Assembly (NCBI GenBank): GCA_948567375.1
Contig: CAOYZS010000005.1
Span: forward strand, 496,001 to 560,000
Direction of reading: 5' to 3'
Source of the DNA: Lunularia cruciata
Taxonomy: Eukaryota > Streptophyta > Marchantiopsida > Lunulariales > Lunulariaceae
Length of the DNA: 64,000 nucleotides
The position numbers and the translations under genes are program-made. The notes under the pieces are model-generated. The model saw only the letters and a program-made list of their open reading frames with translations. It was not told the DNA's origin and made no database searches. Below, piece by piece: positions 4,707-22,930 of the stretch; position 1 is the first letter of the stretch; every line of letters begins with the position of its first letter.

Positions 4707-5937
4707 TGAAGTCATATTGTGCTTGTATGACATCAAAAGGTGAAGAATGGTGTCTTTGGGTTGTAACCCAAAGTAAAGTGACTTTGTGTCAGAAGATGAA
4801 GTACTCTGAGTGGTCCTATCAACATTCAATGCAAAGTAAGGAGACTCGGCTTGGGGATGCTCAACCCAAGGCAAGGATAATATAACAACTTTCCTTCAGA
4901 GTTGGACATTCAAGAATGGTACACACGGTAAAAAAATACCGCACATAAAAAATGGCTGGCCTATGAGCGGGAGAAAATTGATAGTGATAGGAGCATGAAG
5001 GAGGTGTGATTTCTTAGTAGAAACTCAAAGGAAGAAAGACAGAGGAAGCGCTCCACTATAAGATTTGGATAGGGACAAAGAGATGACAAGTAGTTTTCCA
5101 TTGCCATTAAGGAGTTGTCCTGAGGGAGGTCATGGAAAAGGAAGTGTAGTAAGAGACGCGCTGGTGCATTGAGAAGTCAGAGAGAGTCCAAGAATGAGTT
5201 AGAAGAGTAGCCACCAACCCAGAGTGGAGGAGAGTAAGATGGGAGGCAAGAAGAAGAACTCCAAATTTGTAGTGATAAATCATGCAATTCAGAGATTAGA
5301 TGTGATTGCAAGAATCGAAGTCTTGAGCAGACTTCGGATCACATTCTTGGCATGGAATTGGAACCTTAGTTTTCCAAGTTTCATGACCAAGATCATTGAG
5401 AATAAATATTTTGATGGACCCAAGGAAGAAGCTAAGAGAGGAAATCCGGCTCACCGGACAGAGTCGGATTGGAGGTTAGTACTCAGAAGAGAGGTGGTGA
5501 GGAGTAGGGAGCCACATTCTTGGGGAAAGGAGAAGTAGCTGAAGGAACCTAAGAAGTGAGAGATGCCTTTTCTTCAAAGTGCACAAAGAATGGCTACAAA
5601 GTTGAGAGCTACAAGGATCCTATGAAGAGAGGCATCATAGGAGCAATGATACCTATCTTCAAGCCAGAGCAAACTACTTATGTGATGAAACATCAAGTGG
5701 TGTTCTTCCATGAGATGTTTGTAGGGGAGCTAATCAATTGGGTGAAGTGCTTTCATTAGCATACAAGACAAATGTTGTGGAACTTGCAGGAAAAGTTGCC
5801 TCCACACTACATTGTGCCATTTGCAACCCACTTCTACTTGGGATTGAATTTGCTAAATACAGTGGAGAGACACAAGATGGTGTTGCACTTCCATCTCGAC
5901 TTAAGAAAAGATGCTAATGCGGAGGAGTAGTAGTACA

Positions 5938-7500
5938 TGTGACAACCCGGCAAATATCACTTTTGTGGTAATTGGGTAAGTAAAGTTCATTCTCGCAGAG
6001 ATACTAACCAGAATTGGTCAAATACAAAGTCAAAAGTCACAATTGCAGTTCTTCTTGATGGCTTCTTTAATCTCTTAGGAAGAAACTACACCCAAAAGAG
6101 AGTAACAAGCTCACAATCTTGACAACTTGTCATAAATTCACACACCTAATTGCATCATAGCAAATTCTGTCCAAACAACTCTTGAGTGTGATGATTCAGA
6201 TTCTCCCAAAGATGGCACTTCACTGCGAAGAACGATTTCACCTCAGAATTGTGTTCCACCCCTCCACTGAAGGCACAACTTCCTCGATCAAAATTGCTTC
6301 ACATCAACTTTGTGCTGCACTCACAAATGCAGAATACTACCAACACTACAATTCCTCTCAGATCTGTCAAGGCATTGCTCCGATGCACTTCACTCAAGAT
6401 CAAACACAAAAAATGAAGATCAAGGCTGCAGATTCCAACATCCACAGACACACTGACTTGCCCCTCGGAATTCTCCACACACTCATAAACACAAACACAA
6501 AATTGACAATCGGAATTAAGCTTAGGCGACGAGCACTGAGAACAGCACTTCGCTTTATCTATCTTCAAAAATATGAATATTGAATAACATAAGACTGCAA
6601 ATGCTCCCCTTAAATACTGAAGCAAATGGCAGACTTGCCTACCTAGACACCGCTTCCTAGCATCTCTTCCTACCTGCAGATTCTAATTGACAATCTATCT
6701 CTTCATATCTACCTCTTCTCGTCTCAAAATTGATACTTAGCCCAATCCAATGTCTACCTCATCATCGGCTTCCAAACCCGATGATCTTCTTAATACTTTG
6801 CCTTCTTCGAGTATAGCTGATTCTACCAATTCCTTTACTAATTCTACGACTTCTACACTAGTAACTACAATTGAGCTCAAGAGTGACTTATCTAACTCTC
6901 TATCTCCTGACCTACTCTTATCTACTGTGTCAATTATCAAGTCAGATGACACCTGAATTCCTACTTCTGCGACATTGGGTCTCTTCTCCACTGTCACACT
7001 ATTCTGAATCTTCTCTAACTCACTTGCGATAGGCTTCTGGACACACATTACTGCAGGACGACTACTCAAAGGGATTGGAAATTTACTCGGAACATTCAAC
7101 TTTTCCCTGCGCACTTGCAATTTTATATTACCCCGAATCGCATTCATTCTTTAGTCAATTTCAGTTTTGAATTTATCTCTTCTGCGTGCAACTCCCGGTC
7201 ACTATAAAGACCTGCTTCTTTTGCCACCGCCGTTTCTCGATATGTACTTTCTTGCCACATACCAAGGTTGTTAAACGTTCTTCGTCTCTCCTGCGCCTTC
7301 CAACCCAAAGACGGTGATCTTTGGACTTTTTCCGTCGTACTCCTCTTCCGAGTACCTCCATCATCGGATCCGATGTCATCTTCTTCGGATGTCCTCTGAA
7401 GTTAGTTTCATCTATTCTTTGTCCACAATTCAACTTTCAATGCTTGCTTCTTCTCTTAAACAAGACTAAACCTAGAAAAACAAAAAAATGTGGGACCGCA
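5938..7500 (-). mobile_element. X element copy 3, inverted, internally deleted
   Basis: A 1,563-bp X copy in minus orientation, flanked by a perfect 5-bp duplication GTACA (5933-5937 and 7501-7505). On the plus strand it begins TGTGACAACCC and ends ATGTGGGACCGCA, the reverse complements of the X 3' and 5' ends. It interrupts the ORF of copy 1B. Most of the X coding region is missing: the first 43 or so codons are joined directly to the C-terminal tail, so it is a miniature derivative that kept both ends. Confidence 0.85.
6737..7147 (-). CDS. Short intact ORF of the deleted X copy (136 aa)
   Basis: The only X ORF here without a stop. It starts at ATG 7147 (minus) and ends at TAA 6737-6739. 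Residues 1-43 match the N-terminus of the X protein (M-N-A-I-R-G-N-I-K-L). The rest matches its extreme C-terminus (Q-N-S-V-T-V-E-K ... V-D-I-G-L-G), so an in-frame deletion removed about 700 residues. The product would be small, charged and without a recognisable fold. Whether it is translated is unknown; its intactness may only reflect its shortness. Confidence 0.5.
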   Translation of the reverse strand: MNAIRGNIKLQVRREKLNVPSKFPIPLSSRPAVMCVQKPIASELEKIQNSVTVEKRPNVAEVGIQVSSDLIIDTVDKSRSGDRELDKSLLSSIVVTSVEVVELVKELVESAILEEGKVLRRSSGLEADDEVDIGLG

Positions 7501-10385: not shown

Positions 10386-10735
10386 GTGGAGCCCATCATC
10401 ACTTTGCACCGTTTGCACTGTCGAGTGTGCCATCAGTGGGACCGTTAGGGTTCAGACCTAGCTCGAGTCCAGGGGGTATACTTTTGAAGTGCAGCTCCAA
10501 AGAGCTCACTTCTCAGATGTAATCAGATTGTTTACCATGCTCAACTCAACTCAACTCAGATCAATACTTGATTTATCACTCTATAAACTGCCAACAATTG
10601 GGCACTAATTACAGTCAAACCACACCCACTCAAGCATAGAGAATCCAAGTGACGCTTGCCGGCCTTTGTCCACCATAGCCAGGAACTCAAAGGCTCAACA
10701 TCAGAGAAGTGAGCTCTTTGGAGCTGCACCTCATG
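10386..10735. repeat. Partial 5' LTR of element B with inverted LTR piece (hairpin)
   Basis: 10386-10514 matches the 3' LTR of B (about 21790-21920) in forward orientation. 10515-10735 matches the continuing LTR in reverse complement. The two abut through a 26-bp perfect inverted repeat (10489-10514 and 10704-10729) separated by 189 bp, so the region could fold into a large hairpin. The AACTC/GAGTT tandem near 10540 corresponds to GAGTT repeats near 22060. Confidence 0.75.
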
Positions 10736-11400
10736 CAAGTGTATGCCTCACGTAGGCTCTCTCCAGCCTTCAGATGGAACTCCTGCAAGCTCCTCAGCTT
10801 GTTAGTCTGTACTCCCTAGTAGTTCTGCCTCAAACACAAGAAGAACTCCACCATGGGGTTAAACCCTAGTACCACACCACCTCCTGTAGCGATACCTCCA
10901 CTCGTAGTAGCACTATCTCCAGCTAGTGCACCTCCACTAGCTCCACCACCACTACTCGAGTTAGAACTCGTAGGTACAGTCAATCTACTCCTAGCCACCA
11001 AACTTGAAGTGATAGAGACATAGTTTGGAGACCAATACTGTCTCCATAACTTGATCTCCTCCAAATGAGCTCTCCTGAACTCATGGTAATCATCCATTGG
11101 TGGACCCTCTAGATGCTGAAACAACCCCTTCCATGCCATGAAAGGTGTGAACAAAGTCGGGTTCTGCATCTACTGCAGATCACACCAACTGTCAAACTCC
11201 TAGATGAAGTCATCCAACTCAATGGTAACCACTATACCAGAGTAACGCCTAGGGCCTTTGGAGGCCCCATAAATCTTGTCCATGTCCCACAACAACGGTG
11301 CAGACACACCAAGTGCACTCTCAACTGAATTAGCTCTTGTGTCAAACTCCAACTCAGAGTCAATCTCCTCCTTCATTGGGACCTAAGATACAGGCTGATA
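10736..11400 (-). pseudogene. Element B gag N-terminal part, inverted
   Basis: Reading the minus strand from about 11400 down gives typical gypsy gag text: W-K-G-L-F-Q-H-L-E-G-P-P near 11115, D-D-Y-H-E-F-R-R near 11085, a Ser/Gly-rich spacer, then Q-E-F-H-L-K-A-G-E-S near 10775. This is the part of gag that should precede the zinc knuckle at 11615 on the plus strand, so it has been inverted relative to the rest of B. Stops at 10817 and 11170 break it. It joins LTR sequence at about 10735. Confidence 0.7.
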
Positions 11401-11569
11401 CCGAGTGCCACTCAGAGTAAACCCACTACGTACTGTAGGGCTATCTCCTCTGGAATCCCCAAAGAACTCCGTCATGACCAAGTAACCACAATAGCAAACC
11501 CGAACCACCAACTGCAACCGCAAGTCACAACCGCAAGTACCCCACCATAGGAGAGAGTGTACTCAAGGC

Positions 11570-12540
11570 AGCAGACTTGATACCTCTGGTGCATCACAGC
11601 CAGCACAAAGGCAGTGTCAGCATTGCCACAGATTTGGTCACACTAGTGACCAGTGTTTTGACCTACACCCGGAGTTACGGAGTGGTAGGGCTGCTATGGC
11701 AGGTAGTAGAGGAGCTCTAGTTCATGGAGGACGAGGTGGTGGTAGAGGATCTACACCTAGTAGGGGTGCAGTACCTACCCTTACTTCTGATACAACTATG
11801 GCTACTCGGATTGAGCAGTTGGGAGCAAAGATTGGCTAGTATGGCTATTGCTCACAGGAGATCAGATTTGGGTCCTGAGGCTTCCACCTCATATGCTGGT
11901 GCTAAAGATGCTTTGGACTTCATGTGCAGAGCAACACAGGTGGATGCATTTGCAGCAATGACTAGGAGTAGAGTACGTGCTCTAGAGCCTAGAGGAGCAT
12001 CAATGGAGTTGGACCCACAGAGAGGAGAGGTTGGGAGATAGGTCAGACTTCCCCAGTCTTTCATGCTATCTGAGGCATTGCAGACGATATCCATGGTTCC
12101 TAGATGTCCTAGTGCAGGTGTGGTAAGTGGTGATGGAGTACATGATGGACTACCTGCTAGTCAGCCACCTACTACTACATAGATTGAGTCTAGCATGATG
12201 TTGGGGGCGGCTCAACTGATTATGCGGCGTCCTTTGTTTTTGGCCAATGACATGTTTACATTGGAAGTTGACCCAGCCCCAGTGTTCCGGTTGGCTACCA
12301 CACTTTGTGAGAGTAGAGATGATGTGGTTCCTACTACTAGAGCAGAGGTGGTTGGTAGTGGAGCTGACTTGGTTGAGGAGCATGGGATCCATTCAGCGAC
12401 CAGTGGTTTGTGGCAGGTAGTAGCGGCTAGACTGGAGGAGTTGCCAACTAGACCAGCCTTTGAGAGAGCTCAGTTTACACCTAGTGTTGTCCTATTGGAT
12501 AACGAGAGGGGGATTTTCTATTTGGTGGGACTTCAGGGAA
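11570..12540 (+). pseudogene. Element B gag C-terminal part with CCHC zinc knuckle
   Basis: A perfect retroviral-type zinc knuckle lies at 11615-11656: C-Q-H-C-H-R-F-G-H-T-S-D-Q-C, CX2CX4HX4C, which would bind element RNA. It is followed by an Arg/Gly-rich stretch (G-G-R-G-G-G-R-G) in the same frame. From about 11820 the reading moves to another frame and runs to about 12540, with TAG stops at 12039 and 12180. The second part (12195-12569) is an unrecognised segment before the protease. A frameshift near 12530 leads into the protease frame. Confidence 0.75.
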
Positions 12541-12541
12541 G

Positions 12542-12949
12542 GTCTATACACCACAGAGAGTCTTGTTAGACTCCGGTGCACAACCTCTTATGTTGGGGAA
12601 GGTTGCAGTTGTCGGTATGGAGTTGCGGAAGACCGATGTGGAGAGGTGTCCATTTCAGATCCAGACATCTCTAGGTGGTGGTTTCACACAGTACATCACA
12701 CGTGGGGAGCTTGTGGTCCAGGTTCAGCCTAGTCATTTGACTGATAGCTCGGTGGTGAGAGCTCAAGCTATTGCGACAATAGCTGAGTCATACGATGTGC
12801 TAGTTGGGGGAGCAGTGTTATACCCCATGGGTTTTAGCATTGACTATTGGGAGGAGACAGCCTCCTATAGACCTAGTTGGCGGTCTGGTGAGGGACGGGT
12901 ATGTCGACTCCCAGTACGCTTTAGTAGTGGTAGTCTTGGTTCACTATAG
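12542..12949 (+). pseudogene. Element B aspartic protease
   Basis: Retropepsin-like protease that would release Gag, methyltransferase and Pol products. The active site L-L-D-S-G-A-Q starts at about 12563, with the catalytic Asp codon at 12569-12571. Further on, 'Y-D-V-L-V-G-G-A-V-L-Y-P-M-G' near 12795-12835 occupies the place of the usual D-x-L-L-G-x-D-x-L segment. A TAG at 12947-12949 ends the open stretch, but the same frame continues into the methyltransferase, so protease and methyltransferase were probably one polyprotein. Confidence 0.8.
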
Positions 12950-13099
12950 TTTGGGACCATGGCAGCATCATTTTTAGCTTTTAGTGGTGTAGTTACTTGG
13001 CTTGGTGACTTGTTGGAGAGGAACGCCCATGCAGAGGATACTCCAGTACCAGAGGAGATCACTCGGCTTTGAAGTACAAGTGGGATTGTTCCATCCACC

Positions 13100-14260
13100 T
13101 TGGATGTTCCATTGTGGAGTTTAGAGGAGGCATTGCAGCAACATGCAGATCAGTTGGTGCAGCAAGCTTGGAGTGGAGCCTTTGTACCATTAGTAGATGA
13201 GTGTGAGGATGAGCCTCCAAAGGCAATTGCTTTGACACCTCTGGATACCACACTCATTGCTTGGCAGTATCCAATAGAGGGGATATGTCTATTGGAATTG
13301 TTTGGTGGGATTAGCACTGGACTAGCTGCGGTGTCACATGCAAGTATTCGAGTACAGAGGTACTTGTATGTAGAGAGAGAGGAGACTGCTAGGCGAGTCT
13401 TTCTACATCATGTGGTACACTTGGCCTATTGGTATCCGGAGTTATTACCGATGTCAACAGTCAGATGTTACCAAAAGGCCCTACCAATAGACATTTCCTT
13501 ACTAGGGGCGCATGACCTAGAGAGACATGGGCCTATTCACTTGGTGATTTCTGGATGGCCATGTAAGGGACATACACGTGCGGGCCACGGTTTGGGTCTT
13601 CAAGATCCTCGTTCTGGTGTGTTTTGGGAGATGTTACGGATACTACAACATCTCCAGGTTCATCAGTCTGTTTCTCCAGCTTACCTTTTGGAGAACGTCC
13701 CTTTGATGGGTGATTCTCGCACCAAAGTGGTGGCAAGTACACATCAAGTTCATTCTTGGATGGGACCTGCTGTATTGTTAGATGCAGCTAGAGTGGGATC
13801 ACGGGCTCATCGTCTTTGTCTTTGGTGGATGAACCTCTTACCCAGAGAGGTTCTACAACACGCTTATGATAGGATTTAGCGACTTGACTACATCCTTGTT
13901 GATGACATCTTGGATGTTGAACATCAGTCTCAAACAATGGTAGTGGCTGATAGGTCACCTATGGCAATGGTAAACCTAGTTGGACAGCCTAGAGCCGCAT
14001 TTCCCACACTCATGAGTTTCCTAGGCTCTCATGCTTTTTGAGAGGGAGGACCTAGACTTGTTTGGGACTCAAAGTAACAACAGTTGGTGGAGCCCAATGC
14101 CAATGAAAGAGAGCGGGTGATGGGTTTTTGCACTGGTATTACCGCTATTCCAGCAGTGCTAGAGGTATCTAAGCGACAGGTGTTAGGTCAGGTTATGGAC
14201 CTGAACTATTTGACCTAGATTGTGAGCCTTGGCTTGGTAGAGCAGCGTAGGATATGGTTG
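13100..14260 (+). pseudogene. Retrotransposon-encoded C5 DNA methyltransferase (DNMT3-like)
   Basis: Cytosine-5 DNA methyltransferase domain inside a gypsy polyprotein; it would transfer methyl from S-adenosylmethionine to DNA cytosines. In the open stretch 13100-13879 (259 codons) I see motif I 'LFGGISTG' (residues 67-74), an acidic motif II region (Y-V-E-R-E-E, 90-95), motif IV 'GWPCKGH' (152-158; catalytic Cys codon 13562-13564), motif VI 'LLENVP' (196-201) and motif VIII 'RVGSRAHR' (231-238). The same frame continues through stops at 13877, 14039, about 14075 and 14216 with 'N-E-R-E-R-V-M-G-F' and 'V-L-G-Q-V-M-D-L', which fit motifs IX-X. Motif order is unpermuted, like DNMT3 and unlike plant DRM. 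No intron: it is in frame with the protease upstream, and reverse transcriptase follows. Confidence 0.87.
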
Positions 14261-15487
14261 ATAGGCATCATCACTCGAACACTTGTGAGCCCTATGCCTA
14301 TCAAGACGATTCAAGCATATGCTAGAGGCGATGGACCAAGTGGACATGGTATTCTTGGGACACATCCAGTAGCTATTAGGGAGAGTGGTCTACTTGGAGT
14401 CCATTCAGGTGAGCATGGGCTACTTGGATTACACTCTTGGTCCATTTGGGATGCAGCTAGAGGACGTGTGGAGCTTGCAGCCAGAGTGGAGGGAGTTTTT
14501 CACACAGAGGTTGGAACCTCTAGTGGTCGAGAGCATGACACTATTGCTCCCAAGGGCCCAATGTAGCAACCAGTCAATACGTCTTCCACTCCAACTACCG
14601 TTACAGAGGATACTTGGGAGCCAGATCTTGGACCCAAGCTTACTGGAGAGGAAAGACCTAAGGTTTGGAGGTTCTTGAGGAGCCACATGAGTTGTTTTGC
14701 CTTCAGTATGAAGGATTTGGGTGCTCTGAAGGAACTTGGTATACGGATTGAGCTGACTAGCGATACACTAGTTTTTCGATGTCCTTATTGTTAAAGTGAC
14801 ATGAAGAGGACATTGATTCAGAGCCAGAGTAGTGACCTTTTTGAGGCTAGTTTGGTGGAGATTTCACATGGAGAGTATGCATCAACGACAATGATGCCAG
14901 CCAAGAAGGATATGCATGGCAACTACATAGATAGGCGGATGTGTGGAGATAACCGTCCTATCAACCGATAGACCAGGGCTGATCGGTATGCCATGCCTAC
15001 ACTAGAGGAGATTTTTGATGCGATTGGGCATGCAAAGGTCTTCAGTACTTTGGATCTTCAAGCGGGATATAATCAATTGCCGATCAAGGAGGAGGATAAG
15101 TCCAAGACAACATTCTGGGCTATTGATCCTCACGGCAGGGATGTGTTATATCAATGGGGTTCTTACCATTTGGGTTGAAGAATGCTCCTGTTGAGTTCCA
15201 AAGGGTCATAGATAGGATCCTAGCTGGATTGGATTTTGCTTGGTGCTATATTGATGACATTTTGGTCTATAACACTACTGTGGAGGAGCATGAGAGACAG
15301 TTGTTGGAGGTGTTTGAGAGGTTGAGATCTCACAGACTCAAATTACATCCTGGGAAGTGTAGGTTCTTCCATGAGCAGGTTGAGTATTTGGGTCACACTA
15401 TTTTCCCCCTGAGGACTTGGTGTTCAGTAGACCAAGGTGGAGGCTATTGCACGTATTCCTTGGCCTATGGATGTGAGCAGAGTGTGA
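14261..15487 (+). pseudogene. Element B reverse transcriptase, N-terminal and palm parts
   Basis: Reverse transcriptase that would copy element RNA into DNA. 14385-14680 is an unrecognised linker (W-S-L-Q-P-E-W-R-E-F-F) in a shifted frame. From about 14700 come 'H-G-E-Y-A-S', 'M-P-A-K-K-D', 'D-N-R-P-I-N-R', 'A-K-V-F-S-T-L-D-L' (15030-15060) and 'P-F-G-L-K-N-A-P' (15165-15190), then the catalytic box 'C-Y-I-D-D-I-L' at about 15244-15264 and 'Y-L-G-H-T-I' near 15390. TAA near 14792 and TAG near 14968 interrupt it, and a frame change lies near 15155. The domain is cut at 15492 by X copy 2 and resumes at 19197. Confidence 0.85.
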
Positions 15488-15492
15488 GCATT

Positions 15493-18400
15493 TGTGGTAC
15501 CCACATTTTTTTTTCTATGGTTAGTCGTGTTTAAGAGACGAAGTAAGCATGGAAAGTCAAATTGCGAACAAAGAATGGCCAAAAGTAACTTTGGAAGAAA
15601 TCCAAAGAAGATGACATCGGATCCGATGATGGAGGTACTCGGAAGAGGAGTACGCCGGAAAAAGTCCAAAGATCACCGTCTTTGGGTTGGAAGACACAAG
15701 AGAGACAAAGACCGTTTAACAACCTTTGTATGTGGCAAGAAAGTACATTTCAAGAAATGGCGGGGGCAGAAGAAGCATGTCTTGACAATGACCAAGAGTT
15801 GCACGCAGAAGAGAGAAATTTGTAGACAAAATCAACTAAAGAATGACTGCAATTCGGGGCAATATAAAATTGTGACTGCAAAGGGGAAAGTTGAATACTC
15901 TGAGTAAATTTCCAATCCCTTAGGGTAGTTGTCCTGCAGTAATGTGTGTTTGAAAGCCCATCGAGAGTGAGATTTTCCAAAACCCTGAGGAAGATAGAGT
16001 GTCTCGTCCAGGAGAGGGTCTCATCTTCCAACATCGTAGAATGAGAGAACAGATCATGGCGAAGAAGGTGGCCAATGAGCTAGCAGTGAGAGGGTTTGCA
16101 ATCCAAAGGGTAGATGTAGTAGCTAGAATTGAAGTCTTGATTAGACTTCATATTACTTTTTTAGCATGGAATTGGAATTTCAATTTCTTGGGAGTGATGG
16201 CAGAGATTGCTGCCAATAATTGTGAGGAGGGTCCCGAAGTGGAAGGGAAGAGAGGCAATCCGGCTCGATGGACTGAGTCGGATTGGAAGTTGGTATTGGG
16301 AAGAGAAGTAGGAGAACCAACAGGCATCACCTTCTATCAGAAGTGTGATGCTGCAGAGGAGACAGCGGAAATCCGCAATTCGTTCTTTGCTCCGAGAACC
16401 ACGAATGGCTACAAGGTGGAGTCCTATCGGGATCTGATCCGAAGAAGTATTGTGGGGGTGATGCTGGCCATGTTCAAGCCAGAACAAACCATCTACGTGA
16501 ACATGCAGCAGGCTGTCTTCTTCCATCATATGTTTGTAGGAGCTCTAGTGAATTGGGCGAAGTGCTTTCACCACCGAACAAGGCAGATAGTGGTGAATTG
16601 GCAAACAGGCTCGCCATCACATTATTTTGCACCGTTTGCAGTCCACTTCTACTTTGGGCTGAACTTACTATCCGAAGAAGAGCGTCATTGTATGGTGTCT
16701 CACATGCATCCCAATTTGCGACAAGAAGCAGACGAGGAGGAGCGACAGTATATGCTACATCTTTGAGCAAATGACAAATACTTCGCGAGGACGGGACAGT
16801 GGAAAGTCAAAGAAATTACCAGTCCAAAGACGAAGAAATGTGGCAAACCAGAAGAAGCAAGGTTGCCTCCCATGCAAAGGAAGACTTGGCGGCTGAGGTT
16901 GAAGACGGCCAAGATCGTAAAAGAGGCATCATTGGGATCGGAGTATGGGGAAGAGACTGAGTCGCAAGAAGAGGAATCGGAAGACGAGGAGCTCACATTG
17001 AAAAGTGAGGAGTCGGGGAGCGATAGCAATGGGGAGCCAAAGGTCCAGCAATTGGCAGCAGTAAGTGAGGCTTGTCAGACGATGATAGTAAACAAGTCAA
17101 GAGCAGAGGAGAAAGTAGAGAATCCCGCGGGGCCGAGTTCAAGAGGCCAAGACAAAGAAAGTGCCAACACGATGAAGATACGAAGATCACGACTTTGGAT
17201 GAAGGAGCCGATGACGGAGGAGAAGACTTCAGACGAAGAGGGCGATGAAGAGGAAGAGCACTCTAGCGGGATATCCTATCTGACGAAGGTGGTAACACCA
17301 TTGCTGGAACTGTTGAAGGAGCATCGAAGAGTAATTCTCCAAGATCGCAGGAAGGGGATGAACGAATTGCAGATGGTGAAGTATTTGGTAAGTGAAGTGA
17401 AGGAGTTGCAGGAGCAACAAGTCCAAAGAAGCAAGGAAGTGGAAGAACTTTGGAGGGAGGAAAGCTTGATGAAGAAAACGCTGACCATGCTACAAGGGAG
17501 TTGTGCAGAAAAGGAAAAGGAACTGCAAAGGCGAGCCGGAGAATTCAAGGAACAAACGATGTGGCTCAATAAGATGAAGGAAGAAGTGAGTGATGTGTGC
17601 ATCTAGAATGTTCATTTGAAGGCGATGAATATCATGATGGAGCAGGAGTTGGACAGCTTAAAGAAAAGTGCCGCAGCGAAAGATCAAGCATGGTAGAGAG
17701 AGTTGGCAGCCAGGCAAGAAGAAGAAGAGCGATTGCGAGAACTTGTCAAGAGCGCGGAACAGCAAAGCATGCAGTATGCAGAGGAGAAGAAGATGCTCGC
17801 TGCGGAGTACGAAGATGAGTTGAAGATGTATCGTGAGGAGTTGAAGGTGGAGCGCTCTCGAGGATATGCATCGGAATCAGTAGGGGAAGTTGCAGGAAAG
17901 TTAAGAGTGATTTTAAGCACAGAGGCTGAAGGGAGATTGGAGGAAGCTCACCTACATGAGTTAAAGTTACTTGTGCAGGAAACACAGAAGAGAAAGGCCA
18001 AGGATGTGGACATGAACACCTTATTGATTTGATTGAGGGAGCGTGTAGATAGGAAAATGCTAGATGTAGAGAACAATGTTAGTCTTAGACTAGATTTAGT
18101 CAATTTGGAATTAGAGAAGATTCAGGATAGTGTGACAGTGGAGAAGAAACCCGATGTCACAGAAGTAGGAGTACAGGTGTCATCGGACTTGATGATTGAC
18201 ACATTAGAGAAGAGTGGGTCAGGAAATAATGAGTTAGATAAGTCACTCTCTAGTACAATTGTAGTTTCTAGTTAAGAAGTAGCTAAAACAGTGAAGGATT
18301 TGGTAGATGTATATATAACCGAAGAAGGAGAAGTAGTAAGAAGATCATTGGGTTTGGAAGCCGATGATGAGGTAGACATCGGATAGGGATAAGTGTCAAT

Positions 18401-19191
18401 TTTGAGATAGGAAGAGGCAGATATGAAGAGATAGATGTCACTTGGGATCTGTAGGTAGGAAGAGATGTTAGGAAGCGGTGCCTAGGTAGGCAAGTCTGCC
18501 GTTTGCTTCAGTATTTAAGTGGAGCATTTGCAATATGATGTTATTCAGTATTCAAATTTCTGAAGATAGATAAAGCAAAGTGTTGTTCTCAATACTCGTC
18601 ACTTAAGCTTAATTCCGATTGTCAATTTTGTGTTTTTGTTTGTGAGTGTGGGGAGAATTCCAAAGAGCAAGTCAGTGTGTCTGTGGATGTTGGAATCTGC
18701 AGCCTTGATCTTCATTCTGTGTGTTTTGATCCTGAGTGAAGTGCATCGGAGTAATGCCTTGACAGATCTGAGAGGAATTGTAGTGTTGGTAGTATTTTGC
18801 ATTGGTGAGTGCAACATGAAGTTGATGTGAAGCAATTTCGATCGAGGAAGTTGTGCCTTCAGTGGAGGGGTGGAACACAATTCTAAGGTGAAATTGGTCT
18901 TTGTAGTGAAGTGCCGTCTTTGGGAGAATCTATATCATCACAATCAAGAGTTATTTGGACAGAATTTGCTATGTTGTGATTATGTGTGTGTATTTGTGAC
19001 AAGTTGTCAAGATTGTGAGCTTGTTACTCTCTTCTGGGTGTAGTTTCTACCTGAGAGATTAAAGAAAACATCAAGAAGAACTACAATTGTGACTTTTGTC
19101 TTTGTATTCGACCAATTCTGGATAGTATCTCTGCGGGAACGAACTTTACTGACCCGATTACCGCAAAAGTGATATTTGCCGGGTTGTCACA
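15493..19191 (+). mobile_element. X element copy 2, most complete
   Basis: A 3,699-bp X copy beginning TGTGGTACCCACA and ending GGGTTGTCACA, flanked by a 5-bp near-duplication (GCATT at 15488-15492, ACATT at 19192-19196). It is inserted in the reverse transcriptase of element B; removing it rejoins the conserved F-L-G-L-A-N-F-Y segment. Layout: about 350 bp of leader, one long ORF frame (15843-18392), and about 800 bp of 3' untranslated sequence. No direct terminal repeats. Confidence 0.88.
15843..18392 (+). pseudogene. X-element protein, copy 2 (about 850 codons, one frame)
   Basis: Best copy of the X ORF: from ATG 15843 to TAA 18390-18392 the whole region stays in one frame, with no frameshift. 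It is interrupted only by stops (15873, 15921, 15951, 16764, 17604, about 17694, 18030, 18273 and 18384), most of them one transition from a sense codon. Parts: a short basic N-terminus; a compact region (residues about 75-310) with F-L-A-W-N-W-N, E-S-D-W-K-L-V-L-G-R and H-Y-F-A-P-F; an acidic Glu/Ser-rich stretch; a long charged probable coiled coil (about 16960-18030); and a conserved tail ending D-E-V-D-I-G. The compact region faintly recalls plant transposon-associated proteins of unknown function; I see no catalytic triad. Confidence 0.7.
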
Positions 19192-19196
19192 ACATT

Positions 19197-19860
19197 CCTT
19201 GGGTTGGCAAACTTCTATGGCCGCTATGTGAGACGATTTAGTGCCATTGCCAAGGCCTTGATGAAGCTGACCAAGCTTACACATGAGTGGTGTTAGAGAG
19301 ATGAGCAGGAGGGAGCTTTTGTAGAGCTCAAGGAGAGGTTGACATCTGCTCCTATTTTGAGGAGACCAATTAGAGGATGACCATTTCAGGTTCATACTGA
19401 TTGGAGTATGTTGGGGCTTGGAGAGGTGCTCATCCAGCATGATGATGAGGGAAAGAAGTTTGTGGTGGCCTATGGTAGTTGCTCCAACAATTCAGCGGAA
19501 GCAAATTATAGTTCATATGAGGGAGAGTGCTTGGCAGCAGTTTGGGCAGTAGCACATTTCCGATGTTACCTATTTGGTAACCCCTTCACTCTCATCACTG
19601 ATCATCAGCCACTGAAGTGGTTGATGGAGTCCGACAAGCTTTCAAGGAAGCTTGCATGATGGGCTCTGATTTTATAGGAGTATGATTTCACGGTTGTTCA
19701 TAGACCTGGAGTGGTGAACCCTGATGCAGATGGGTTGAGTAGAAACCCATGTCCCAACCAGCAAGATCAGACCAAAGCACGTTGGCATGGTGAGACAGAT
19801 GAGGAGATGGTGCCAGGTTGGCATGCATCGGCCTTTTTGTGTATATTTTTAGAGGCTTTG
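19197..19860 (+). pseudogene. Element B reverse transcriptase thumb and RNase H
   Basis: Continuation after X copy 2. It starts F-L-G-L-A-N-F-Y (19194-19220) and reaches RNase H at about 19385: H-T-D-W-S near 19395, 'E-A-N-Y-S-S-Y-E-G-E-C-L-A-A-V-W' near 19500-19545 with the catalytic Glu, and 'L-I-T-D-H-Q-P-L-K-W-L' near 19590-19625 with the catalytic Asp. It ends 'V-V-N-P-D-A-D-G-L-S-R', the usual tail. RNase H would remove the RNA strand of the hybrid. Stops near 19294, 19378 and 19658 interrupt it. Confidence 0.85.
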
Positions 19861-21200
19861 GTGGTATCTCTCTCAACGCATACAAGAGGAGTTATTGAGG
19901 TCACAGATCCAGAGTGTGAAGATATAAGTACAGTTCAACGAGACATTCATAATGATGTCTTAATGATGGACTATCTTTGCACTGGTGTTGTGGGTGGCAC
20001 AGTTGGGGCCAAGGAGAGAGACCATGTTCTTCAGCAAGCCAGACGGTTTAGATTGGAGGGCAGACACCTTTTGCATGTATGGGAGGATGGTAGACTGTGA
20101 GTAGTACCACTTCCAGCACAGAGACCATAGTTGGTCCATCATGCTCATGAGGAGCTAGGACATTTTGGAGTAAAGCGTACATATAGCTTACTCCAGAGTC
20201 ATTATTGGTGGCGCGGTATGCAGAAAGAGGTACATCAATTTGTTGTCAAATGTGTGGTTTGTGACCAAGTTAGAGCATCATTCAATGCTCCTATGCCACA
20301 GTTACACCCATTACCTATCATGGGATTGGGTTACCCTTGGAGTTTGGACTTTACTTGACCTTTACTGCTGACTGTGAGACATCATCGGTATGTTTTGGTG
20401 ATGGTAGAACCAAGTGGATGGCACTTCCTTACAAGTCTAGTGAAGGGACAACTTACTTATTCTTGGATTGAGTTCTTAGTCATTTTGGTGCACCAGCTGA
20501 GGTTTTGACTGATCAAGGTATCGAGTTCTTGGGAGAGTTTCAGGTCTTGTGTGACAAGGCTTTGATTGATCATTGTACTACATCTCTCGAGATTATCCTA
20601 AGGCAGATAGCTTAGCAGAGAGAGTGGTTCAGACGGTGAAGAGAGGATTGCAAAAATATGGTTTGTAGAGAAGCCACTTGGGAGATTGGGATCTCCAGTT
20701 ACCTTGGTTGGCCATGGGCTATCGGTTCAGCCATCAAGCCTCCTTAGCATCCTTCTCTCCGTACTTTCTACTCTATGGACGAGATTCAGATTTACCTACA
20801 ACCATTTGTCGAGATACTATTGCAGTTTTGGACTTGGATGACCCTAATGTATGGATGAGCGCCTGTTCTAAGCAGGTAGAGATCTTTCAGAGGGTGATGC
20901 CGATGGTCTTTGAGAACTTGGCGATTGCTCAACATATGGATATTGTACGCTATGCTACCATTCGAGAAGGAGGTTATAGACCCTCAATCTGTCGATTTCA
21001 TCCAGATGACTATGTATATCTATAGTAGACAGCACCGACAACACTTGATGTTTCGACAGGCCACACTATCTTGAGAGTGCGTGAGGTTTTGGCATCTGGA
21101 TTCCTTGTGTTAGAAGGACGTGATGGTGTGGTTTGGAAGGATCATGTGTGCAATTGTGCGCCATGCCACCTCCCAAACATTGATGGTAATATGGACCCAA
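19861..21200 (+). pseudogene. Element B integrase (HHCC and DDE core)
   Basis: Integrase that would insert element cDNA into host DNA. The zinc-binding H-H-C-C domain is at about 20131-20270: H-E-E-L-G-H-F ... K-C-V-V-C. The catalytic core shows the first Asp in W-S-L-D-F (about 20338-20352), the second in L-T-D-Q-G (about 20507-20521), and the Glu in L-A-E-R-V-V-Q-T (about 20610-20635). The last is reached only after a frameshift near 20590. 20678-21025 gives W-L-A-M-G-Y-R-F-S ... Y-F-L-L-Y-G-R. Two adjacent TAGs at about 21021-21026 replace likely Gln codons. The chromatin-facing C-terminus follows directly. Confidence 0.83.
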
Positions 21201-21371
21201 GCTTGGCACTTGTACGTGCAGGCTTGAGGTGTATGTTATGTGGCTCTTCTGGTGGAGCTGCTACTATGTTAATGTGTGATAGTTGTTCGACAGGATGGCA
21301 TATGGCATGTATGACTGCTCTCCCTCACAGTGGTTCCTGAGGGACAATGGTTATGTCCTAGATGTACTTGA
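21201..21371 (+). pseudogene. PHD finger at the C-terminus of element B integrase
   Basis: A C4HC3 zinc finger spans 21230-21365: C-M-L-C, then C-D-S-C, G-W-H-M-A-C, and after a one-base frame change near 21325, Q-W-L-C-P-R-C. All eight zinc ligands and the Trp two residues before the seventh ligand are present, which is the PHD rather than the RING pattern. PHD fingers commonly bind histone H3 tails. In this place, where chromoviruses carry a chromodomain, it would plausibly guide integration. The stop is TGA 21369-21371. Confidence 0.82.
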
Positions 21372-21540
21372 CCTATAGCTAATTCATTCTTTATATGGTA
21401 TAGATTGCAGACAAGCGACTAACGATGGGGCTCCATAGCACCCGGCCTCCTGATCTTTGCCCATTATAGGGTATACCATATACTTAGAGTAGATGGCTAT
21501 CTGGAGTTAGAGGGACCTAACCGCCAGCTAGGGGGGCGAT
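21372..21540 (+). other. Element B 3' untranslated region
   Basis: Short non-coding stretch between the PHD finger stop and the LTR. Apart from the polypurine tract I see no feature in it. Confidence 0.5.
21525..21540 (+). other. Polypurine tract region of element B
   Basis: AGCTAGGGGGGCGAT lies directly before the LTR, which starts TGTGGCAC at 21541. A purine tract here is the expected primer site for plus-strand DNA synthesis. Confidence 0.7.
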
Positions 21541-22220
21541 TGTGGCACTTTAGAGGCTATGTATGACTTATGTGTGAGTTGTGCTTCTATAGTGTATGAT
21601 GTTGACAGCGATGTATGTTGTGTAGCAATGTATATACGCACAACATCTATCATGCCATTTGTAGTGTCGCATCTTGATTGCTCGGACACTAGAGTTGCAG
21701 TAATAGTAGTTAAAGTTATTTCAGCAATTCCTCAGAGACTACTTTTTGACGGTCAGATTTCATGTTTGGGGTACTGACTTCACGGTGGGGTCCACCATCA
21801 CTTTGCACCATTTGCACCATCGAGTGTGCCGTCAACGAGACCATTAGGGTTCAGACCTAGCTCAAGTCCAAGGAGTATACTTTCAAAGTGTAGCTCCAAA
21901 GAGCTCACTTCTCTGATGTTGAGCCTTCGAGTTCCTGGCTATGGTGGACAGAGGCCGGCGAGCGTCACCTAGATTCTCTATGCTTGAGTGGGTGTGGCTT
22001 GACTATAATCAGTACCCAGTTGTTGGTAGTTTATAGAGTGATAGATCAAGTACTGATCTGAGTTGAGTTGAGTTGAGAGTGGTAAACAATCTGATTATTA
22101 TGGCACTTTAGAGGTTATGTATGACTTATGTGTAAGTTGTGCTTCTATAGTGTATGATGTTGATAGCAATGTATGTTGTGTAGCAATGTATATTGTGTAG
22201 CAATGTATATACGCACAACA
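21541..22220 (+). repeat. 3' LTR of element B plus adjoining second LTR start
   Basis: The LTR begins TGTGGCACTT at 21541 and runs about 558 bp to 22098. At 22099 the LTR start is repeated (TATGGCACTT) and continues about 120 bp, until X sequence begins near 22221. Apart from one short tandem duplication (22185-22205), the second copy differs from the first almost only by C-to-T and G-to-A changes. A forward part and an inverted part of the same LTR lie at 10386-10735. Confidence 0.75.
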
Positions 22221-22930
22221 AATGGTATTTTTGTTAGTAATTGTCCAAATGCTCTACCTATTTAAAGGAGGCATTAGCATTGTGTTATTATTCATTATTT
22301 ATATTTTTGAAGTTGAGTAAAGCAAAGTGTTGTAACTCAATGCTCGTTGTTTCAGCTTAATTCTGAGTATCAATCTTGTGTGTATGTGAGTGTTTGGAGA
22401 ATTTCAAAGTGCAAGTCAGTGAGCTTGTTGGATGTTGGATTCTGCAACTTTGATTTCATTTTTTGTGTTTGATGTTGAGTGGATAGCAATCAAAGCAATG
22501 CCTTGAAAAAAATGAGAGGAATTGTAGTGTTGGTAGCATTTTGCATTTGGGAGTACAATACGGGGTTGATGCAAAGCAATTTTGGTCAAGGAAGTTGTAC
22601 CTTCAATGGGGGAGTGGAACACAATTTTGAGGCAAGTGGTTTCATAGTGAAGTAGCCTTCTTTTAAAGAATCTGGATCATCACAATCAAAATTGTTTGGA
22701 AAGATTTGATGGAATTGTGACTATGGAACTGTAATTTGTGATAAGGTTGCAAATCAGTGCTTGCTACTATCTTCTGGGTGTGGTTTCTACTTGAGAGATT
22801 AAAGATGCAACCAAGAAGAACTAAATTATTACTGTTTGACTTTTTATTTGACCATTTTTGACTCATACCTCTATAGGAACAAACTTTACTTACTAATTAC
22901 TAGAAAAGTGATACTTGCTAGGTTGTCACA
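22221..22930 (+). mobile_element. X element copy 4, 3' part only
   Basis: Matches the 3' untranslated region of X from the 'AAATGGTAT ... TTGTTAGTAATTG' stretch to the terminal GGTTGTCACA at 22921-22930. The left part is missing. Its right end abuts X coding sequence in mid-ORF, so copy 4 probably landed inside copy 5. Confidence 0.75.

Follow-up and report, generated by a model that had tools for sequence, protein, structure and literature searches.

A Ty3/Gypsy retrotransposon of Lunularia cruciata with a DNMT3-like methyltransferase at the end of its first open reading frame, a candidate for methylation of its own new cDNA

What is the use of a DNA methyltransferase to a retrotransposon? 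The question is raised by a stretch of 64,000 nucleotides from the liverwort Lunularia cruciata (assembly GCA_948567375.1, contig CAOYZS010000005.1, forward strand positions 496,001 to 560,000; hereafter the window), which holds a decayed and interrupted copy of an abundant plant Ty3/Gypsy retrotransposon encoding its own DNMT3-like C5 cytosine methyltransferase (MT). At even odds, a probability of about 0.5, we read the family as Ty3/Gypsy elements whose first open reading frame (ORF1) ends in the MT and in which the enzyme, kept at the level of Gag by a leaky UAG stop codon, would methylate the element's own new cDNA. This reading builds on the order of the domains, the stop codon and its context, the layout of the repeats, target duplications, a ratio of non-synonymous to synonymous substitution (dN/dS) in the MT below that of the linkers, the catalytic residues and the membership of the MTs in one clade.

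The methyltransferase and the family that carries it

In the window the MT is encoded at 13286-14209, preceded by a DSGA protease and followed by a reverse transcriptase (RT) of Ty3/Gypsy type that starts at about 14.9 kb and matches Pfam RVT_1 at 1.2e-19 on ORF 15154-15534. A Ty3/Gypsy element with an embedded C5 MT, as an initial annotation made from the letters of the window had it, was borne out by motifs I-X and by the proposed check against Pfam DNA_methylase (PF00145), which matches ORF 13100-13879 at 3.6e-7, with 30.4 bits over a cut-off of 22. Protease and MT do lie in the one frame assumed for them, but between the protease motif and motif X this frame is broken in the window copy by five in-frame stops (12947, 13070, 13877, 14039, 14075). 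The RT of the window copy is partly in another frame than protease and MT, and a TAG at 14564-14566, which the family retains, parts it from the MT. As this stop is kept by the family, the MT is part of the gag-protease ORF and not of the RT ORF; the supposition of one open frame for MT and RT thus fell, the MT ending the gag-protease ORF ahead of UAG-CARYYA.

The genome (566 Mb, 74 contigs) contains at least 1,136 occurrences of the MT/RT junction (558 forward, 578 reverse), found with a pattern that had 12 free bases and was otherwise nearly exact, and as a control pattern occurred 0 times, a chance origin of the protease-MT-RT arrangement is excluded. The Pfam search of the genome scored 123 of 2,161 first-look candidates, some of the 123 being host genes, and the DNA search 40 of 6,886; these counts, like that of the junctions, are lower bounds. 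Eighteen of the 123 Pfam-scored loci are in frames of 826-1,428 residues, and the 20 copies fetched for closer analysis, a non-random sample, are those with the longest frames. The host loci (L numbers denote loci, P numbers proteins) comprise DNMT3-like genes in exon-like pieces (L001, L004), DRM-like genes (L002, permuted, and L055) and a CMT-like gene (L003). L051, the sole locus from a scan of IMG/VR, was read as an ordinary phage Dcm-type gene.

In the fuller copies ORF1 encodes gag, protease and MT and reaches its stop near position 5578, while ORF2 encodes RT, RNase H, integrase and a C-terminal PHD finger. Scanned in pieces, ORF1 of L012 gave PF00145 at 4.2e-8, a weak gag match (0.021) below the cut-off and nothing else from Pfam, with two CCHC-like knuckles and the protease motif discernible by eye; an earlier DSGA at its residue 528, considered as a second protease, was discarded as linker sequence that matches by chance. 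ORF2 of L010 matches RVT_1 (6.5e-32), RT_RNaseH (7.5e-36), Integrase_H2C2 (1.2e-9) and rve (3.2e-13), followed at the C-terminus by the PHD finger (2.2e-10). The domains therefore stand in the Ty3/Gypsy order of protease, RT, RNase H and rve integrase, the protease being recognized by its motif and homologues only, as its piece gave no Pfam match in the window copy or in L012. In none of the 20 copies are the two ORFs both open along the whole length that other copies show. L016 and L020 lie beside or within other copies of the same element, with extra A/B repeats or post-A1 sequence downstream.

With respect to the kind of enzyme, the MT of L012 finds its closest PDB entries in DNMT3A (9.3e-12) and DNMT3B (2.7e-8), followed more weakly by HaeIII (6.4e-4), DRM (0.011), HhaI (0.02) and DNMT2 (0.041). 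Its motifs run from I to X without the permutation of DRM, and neither an ADD nor a PWWP match was found by Pfam in L012 ORF1 (residues 1-1428, scanned in pieces). In trees whose reference rows were few and partial, the element-type MTs form one long-branched clade, first of 14/14 (100/99) and then of 39/39 sequences (100/100), to which the host DNMT3 and DRM rows, human DNMT3A, Arabidopsis DRM2 and two rows of bacterial or phage origin do not belong; 34 of the 39 carry another element domain, and P0013, P0019, P0073, P0076 and P0084 show the MT alone. These results agree with the view of the initial annotation that the enzyme is unpermuted and DNMT3-like and not a recently captured DRM, and the likeness it had suspected to the charophyte case of de Mendoza et al. 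(2018) is supported, that element being likewise a Ty3/Gypsy with an unpermuted DNMT3-like MT.

The catalytic Cys is present in 83 of 86 aligned MTs, the Glu of ENV in 83 of 88 and the Arg of motif VIII in 79 of 87. Before the catalytic Cys of motif IV, an unusual Glu replaces Pro in 21 of the 86 (for example P0217 and P0179). Pooled over the 20 copies (gag, n=19), which were picked for long frames and from which codons with stops or gaps were dropped, dN/dS is 0.29 in gag, 0.28 in the protease, 0.37 in the MT, 0.23 in RT, 0.29 in RNase H, 0.57 in the integrase, 0.47 in its C-part, 0.30 in the PHD finger and 0.54-0.58 in the linkers and the MT tail.

The stop codon, the ends and the map of the window copy

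After the MT, TAG is followed by CAG or CAA and then by CCA, CTA or TCA in all 21 copies read, that of the window included. Among 40 more Pfam-hit copies, which were not picked for open frames, 39 were aligned, 38 of them with TAG and 36 with TAG-CARYYA, and genome-wide TAG-CARYYA is kept at 1,013 of the 1,136 junctions. UAG_CAR_YYA is the published consensus for efficient readthrough in contexts of the tobacco mosaic type (PMC3542737). In 14 of the 20 copies an ORF of >150 codons opens directly past the TAG, in the same frame as the ORF that ends there. Over 60 aligned copies, changes were seen in 2/360 cells at the six fixed positions of the stop context, in 10/180 at its more variable R/Y positions and in 134/8,433 elsewhere. 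In 6 of 100 junctions listed, counted by eye, a TAG stands in place of the CAG that follows the stop (C-to-T at a CHG site).

The first ORF ends after the MT in protein models of relatives as well, such as P0090 from Marchantia and P0094 and P0099 from a metagenome; P0090 has 1,248 residues and begins MDGMYGAAKGPRRYSG, resembling an internal Met of L012 ORF1. The models of 31 protease-MT proteins without RT or integrase end 0-141 residues past the MT match, 13 of them at the end of the match itself and possibly cut short.

The ends were inspected in 10 copies with 2-kb flanks. The fuller copies have the layout A-coding-B-A-B of split direct repeats, with TG...CA ends and 4-bp target duplications. 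The repeat at the left end, A1, is ~450 bp long and begins TGTCACGCC; 3' of ORF2 follow a purine-rich tract (AGGGGGGCGA in L010), B1 of ~107 bp, two bases, A2 and B2, which ends in ..CGACA and beyond which the copies diverge. B1 and B2 surround A2 in 10/10 flanked copies. A1 and A2 are 97-99.75% identical in 8/10 copies and 89% in L014, while in L013 only 77 bp were found. Judged by eye, the 4-bp duplications, which like the TG...CA ends are usual for Ty3/Gypsy (4-6 bp), are present at 7/9 testable copies and absent in L014 and L021, L013 standing outside this test. The two like terminal long terminal repeats (LTRs) of Ty3/Gypsy elements are not found, as the left end is A and the right end B; A2+B2 would make an LTR, of which the left copy is without B.

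The B|A joint GACA-gc-TGTC resembles a joint of LTR ends, and the purine tract precedes B1. Reverse transcription might thus yield a B-A ... B-A cDNA that circularizes and is cut at B|A, and such a circular intermediate would account for the A-coding-B-A-B layout with a DDE integrase. In 21 sequences the A2|B2 join is seamless in 16 and unclear or absent in 3; it carries an inserted CATCA in L021 and continues into post-A1 sequence in L020. The five post-A1 bases of L021 would be expected if the join is made anew; 16/21 joins, however, are seamless.

The PHD finger occurs on 117 of 122 integrase-bearing proteins (244 proteins in all), a biased figure as nearly all come from a PHD-containing query; the MT searches returned three integrase-bearing proteins, one of which, Marchantia P0067, has it. 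The closest PDB entries to the finger of P0067 are those of CHD4, PHF12, DPF2/3, ATXR5, KDM5B and PHF21A. Several fingers of these types bind H3 tails without K4 methylation. Going by this likeness, the finger may plausibly target integration to chromatin lacking H3K4 methylation.

The copy in the window (Table 1) aligns by blastn with fuller copies at ~92% identity over 10729-11547 (inverted), 11539-15492 and 19193-22193. The extent of 12542-15487 given to it initially does contain protease, MT and RT, but is too short, as the element resumes at 19193 beyond a foreign 3.7-kb insert and continues to ~22.2 kb, and an inverted gag piece lies at 10729-11547. The insert came later, since the element bases CATT (4, or 5 with one difference) flank it on each side and the site is intact in an insert-free copy. 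The domains past the insert are taken from L010, and the PHD-finger region (~21225-21380) is placed by alignment alone.

Table 1. Features of the window copy; motif positions were counted by eye on the translation.
Feature	Position in window	Strand	Basis or remark
Inverted ORF1 (gag) piece of the same element, local rearrangement	10729..11547	-	blastn to L010 2144-1329, 92%
Rest of ORF1: zinc-knuckle region, protease, linker, MT, tail, to TAG	11539..14566	+	translation; blastn to L010 2544-6506, 92%
Aspartic protease region (LLDSGAQPLMLG)	12560..12949	+	motif; homologues P0025, P0097 carry PF13650
Protease motif DSGA	12569-12580	+	translation
DNMT3-type MT, motifs I-X unpermuted, three in-frame stops	13286..14209	+	PF00145 3.6e-7
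MT motif I LELFGG	13292-13309	+	translation
MT motif IV, catalytic PC	13559-13564	+	PCK in window copy, PCQ in L012
MT motif VI ENV	13691-13699	+	translation
MT motif VIII SRAHR	13799-13813	+	translation
MT motif IX ERERVMGF	14105-14128	+	translation; downstream of further in-frame stops
MT motif X	14180-14206	+	translation
TAG CAA CCA, in-frame stop separating MT from RT, context UAG-CAR-YYA	14564..14572	+	
ORF2, first part: leader and RT	14567..15492	+	RVT_1 1.2e-19 on 15154-15534
Foreign nested insert, outside the element	15493..19192	+	insert-free site in L010
ORF2, remainder: RT end, RNase H, integrase, PHD-finger region	19193..21400 (end approximate)	+	blastn to L010 6503-9515, 92%
Repeat B1, after GGGGGGCGA	21540..21647 (ends approximate)	+	
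Repeat A2	21650..22097 (start approximate)	+	
Repeat B2, right end of the element	22098..22222 (end approximate)	+	

The insert holds two ORFs without a Pfam match (15999-16766 and 16863-17606) and has a partial inverted relative at 5938-7494, with weaker ones elsewhere in the window. Further downstream, ~35 kb (28500-63000) are densely filled with families of 60-300-nt direct repeats of irregular spacing, mostly 60-95% alike, which resemble a decayed array of a few alternating units.

What the methyltransferase may do

Judged by analogy, the most likely role of the MT is methylation of the element's own new cDNA. Ribosomes would translate Gag-protease-MT and mostly halt at the UAG, while readthrough at UAG-CARYYA would append RT-RNase H-integrase-PHD to a minority of the chains; with the MT in ORF1 alongside Gag, the integration enzymes would probably be the rarer products. 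Made at the level of Gag, the MT could be packaged in the particle and methylate the newly made double-stranded cDNA, with CG as the probable target, no later than at integration, and the newborn copy would thereby enter the genome resembling host chromatin. The PHD finger, similar to readers of the H3 tail, would probably steer the integration. Methylation of new cDNA has been proposed as the role of SymbioDIRS-Dnmt3, the enzymes of which methylated CG de novo in yeast (PMC5890265).

Several observations weigh against this reading. The closest published enzyme, that of the Klebsormidium element KnitGypsy-Dnmt3, gave no methylation in yeast, and the SymbioLINE enzymes likewise remained without methylation, results from which the authors draw no firm conclusion since human DNMT3B failed too (PMC5890265); the negative Klebsormidium result lowers our confidence in cDNA methylation and slightly raises three of its rivals. 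The dN/dS of the integrase, 0.57, is at the level of the linkers in the 20 copies picked for long frames. The observed/expected ratio of CpG is lowered only mildly, averaging 0.45 over the 20 copies, with 0.32 for the window copy and 0.50-0.53 in other parts of the window; CpG depletion was set aside as a weak sign of self-methylation. As six other positions drawn at random showed as few changes as the six fixed ones in 6,426 of 20,000 draws, conservation of the stop is not significant by itself and was dropped as a proof of selection; since the copies alone do not prove constraint, readthrough is argued from the consensus match and the shared frame of ORF2. Finally, P0139, P0141 and P0213 have MT and RT on one protein, so that expression at the level of Gag is not universal.

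Alternatively, though this is rather unlikely, the MT might act on chromosomes and not on cDNA, silencing or marking integrated copies and thereby limiting the element and sparing the host. A slowing of retrotransposition was raised as an option by de Mendoza et al. (2018; PMC5890265), and the near identity of A1 and A2 in most flanked copies shows recent activity that the host tolerated. An element hampered by its own MT should, however, tend to lose it, yet the junction is kept 1,136 times and the dN/dS of the MT lies below that of the linkers.

We give similarly little credence to the TAG as an ordinary terminator, with ORF2 arising from internal initiation, splicing or a separate RNA. Such expression would suit the models of relatives in which ORF2 starts at a Met past the stop (P0128, P0129, P0131, P0132), some Marchantia and Sphagnum models (P0092, P0103) that join MT to RT by omitting the stretch between, and a stop that is not demonstrably under selection among copies; the frame that continues across the TAG in 14/20 copies and the UAG-CARYYA context speak for readthrough instead.

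Retention of the MT domain as a nucleic-acid-binding or structural part that has lost its enzyme activity appears improbable. The Glu in motif IV of 21/86 MTs and the inactivity of the Klebsormidium relative in yeast (PMC5890265) would fit such a function, to which the retention of the catalytic Cys, the ENV Glu and the motif VIII Arg runs contrary. A one-off insertion of an MT gene into a single element, favoured by nothing beyond the single window, is refuted by the 1,136 junctions and by the order protease-MT-RT in Marchantia (P0092, P0093) and Sphagnum (P0103) and protease-MT in Calypogeia (P0001), although no search was aimed at family copies without the MT segment.

Relatives, known systems and implications

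Protein searches, each limited to scoring the 8,000 candidates with the most words in common, gave 86 proteins with the MT piece, the named ones being from Calypogeia fissa, Marchantia polymorpha, Riccia sorocarpa and Sphagnum, 46 in an alignment search and 420 with integrase-PHD, where Haematococcus lacustris and Volvox are among the 120 matches listed. No row named K. nitens was among the matches listed for the MT and integrase-PHD searches. P0129, which is related to ORF2 with 73% identity over the integrase-PHD query, comes from a transcript assembly, and such an element therefore seems to be transcribed in some eukaryote.

The MT precedes RT in 9 proteins and, in P0095, where RT was not found, RNase H. 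It lies between RNase H and integrase in 13 proteins, Haematococcus P0231 included; in 22 others, among them Volvox P0188, it precedes the integrase and neither RT nor RNase H was detected. A quickly computed integrase tree of 73 rows splits into 33 and 40 rows (SH-aLRT 93), the former with all four MT-before-RT rows and 29 without MT on the protein, the latter with all 13 MT-after-RNase-H rows, the 22 with RT and RNase H undetected and 5 without MT; the two-site distribution of the 39 clade MTs agrees with this tree. In the MT tree, 24 second-position rows (13 in which the position is shown, 11 with RT and RNase H undetected) together with P0073 and P0076 form a clade (99/96). Monophyly of the 12 rows labelled A, including P0013 and P0019, which show the MT alone, was not rejected (p-AU 0.444), and the attempt to read the direction of the MT move from the tree was given up. 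One clade of MTs at two sites implies either a single capture and a single move, or the capture of two MTs that are closely related.

A wider history can be offered tentatively. An ancient green-lineage Ty3/Gypsy clade with PHD integrase may have captured a DNMT3-like MT once, retained it across green algae, liverworts and mosses, and shifted it between two sites of the polyprotein, possibly before RT in bryophytes and between RNase H and integrase in Haematococcus-type elements. A leaky stop of the tobacco mosaic virus type might then have turned the MT of bryophyte elements into a Gag-level particle protein that marks every new cDNA, with integration via a circle cut at B|A.

The closest known system, KnitGypsy-Dnmt3 of Klebsormidium nitens (de Mendoza et al., 2018; PMC5890265), is compared here by its published description. 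It shares the LTR Gypsy domains, an unpermuted DNMT3-type MT under purifying selection and, according to the legend of Fig. 4, a repeat layout of the DIRS type. Its MT, however, is reported in the Pol polyprotein ORF, whereas the Lunularia MT ends the gag-protease ORF before UAG-CARYYA; the Lunularia junction recurs >1,000 times and the integrase bears a PHD finger, and in its accessible parts the publication describes neither PHD nor stop context for KnitGypsy-Dnmt3. SymbioDIRS-Dnmt3 and SymbioLINE-Dnmt of Symbiodinium are also retrotransposon-borne cytosine MTs of many copies, but belong to other classes, with tyrosine recombinase and LINE, respectively (PMC5890265). Some DNMT3s in retrotransposons, with LTR Copia and DIRS named, were reported in 2025, as before in streptophytes and dinoflagellates (PMC12344493), and bursts of Ty3/Gypsy elements are described for the Lunularia genome (PMC9985172).

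Cellular DNMT3 and DRM share the catalytic motifs with the element MT, DNMT3A being the best PDB match and DRM permuted, unlike the MT. Chromoviruses are Ty3/Gypsy elements with a chromodomain on the integrase, and thus likewise have a chromatin reader at the integrase end, where the Lunularia element has its PHD finger. The split direct repeats A-coding-B-A-B are common to DIRS/PAT elements, which differ by a tyrosine recombinase in place of the rve (DDE) integrase and target duplications seen here. Among titles and abstracts of the open-licence literature on plant retrotransposon-borne methyltransferases none with an element of this kind in land plants or chlorophytes was found, and likewise none on PHD-finger integrases or on split direct repeats with DDE integrases. 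New are the land-plant host, the MT ahead of the stop, the PHD integrase and the relatives named from liverworts, Sphagnum, Haematococcus and Volvox.

Retrotransposons are usually the victims of DNA methylation; here a very abundant plant family supplies a DNMT3-like enzyme itself, and its MT shows signs of selection. If the result of one clade and two positions holds, it frames the time of enzyme capture and the movement of a domain within a polyprotein. The PHD integrase offers a testable targeting module, and the position of the MT ahead of the Gag/Pol stop makes the purpose of element-borne MTs testable in culturable liverworts, of which Marchantia has relatives of the element.

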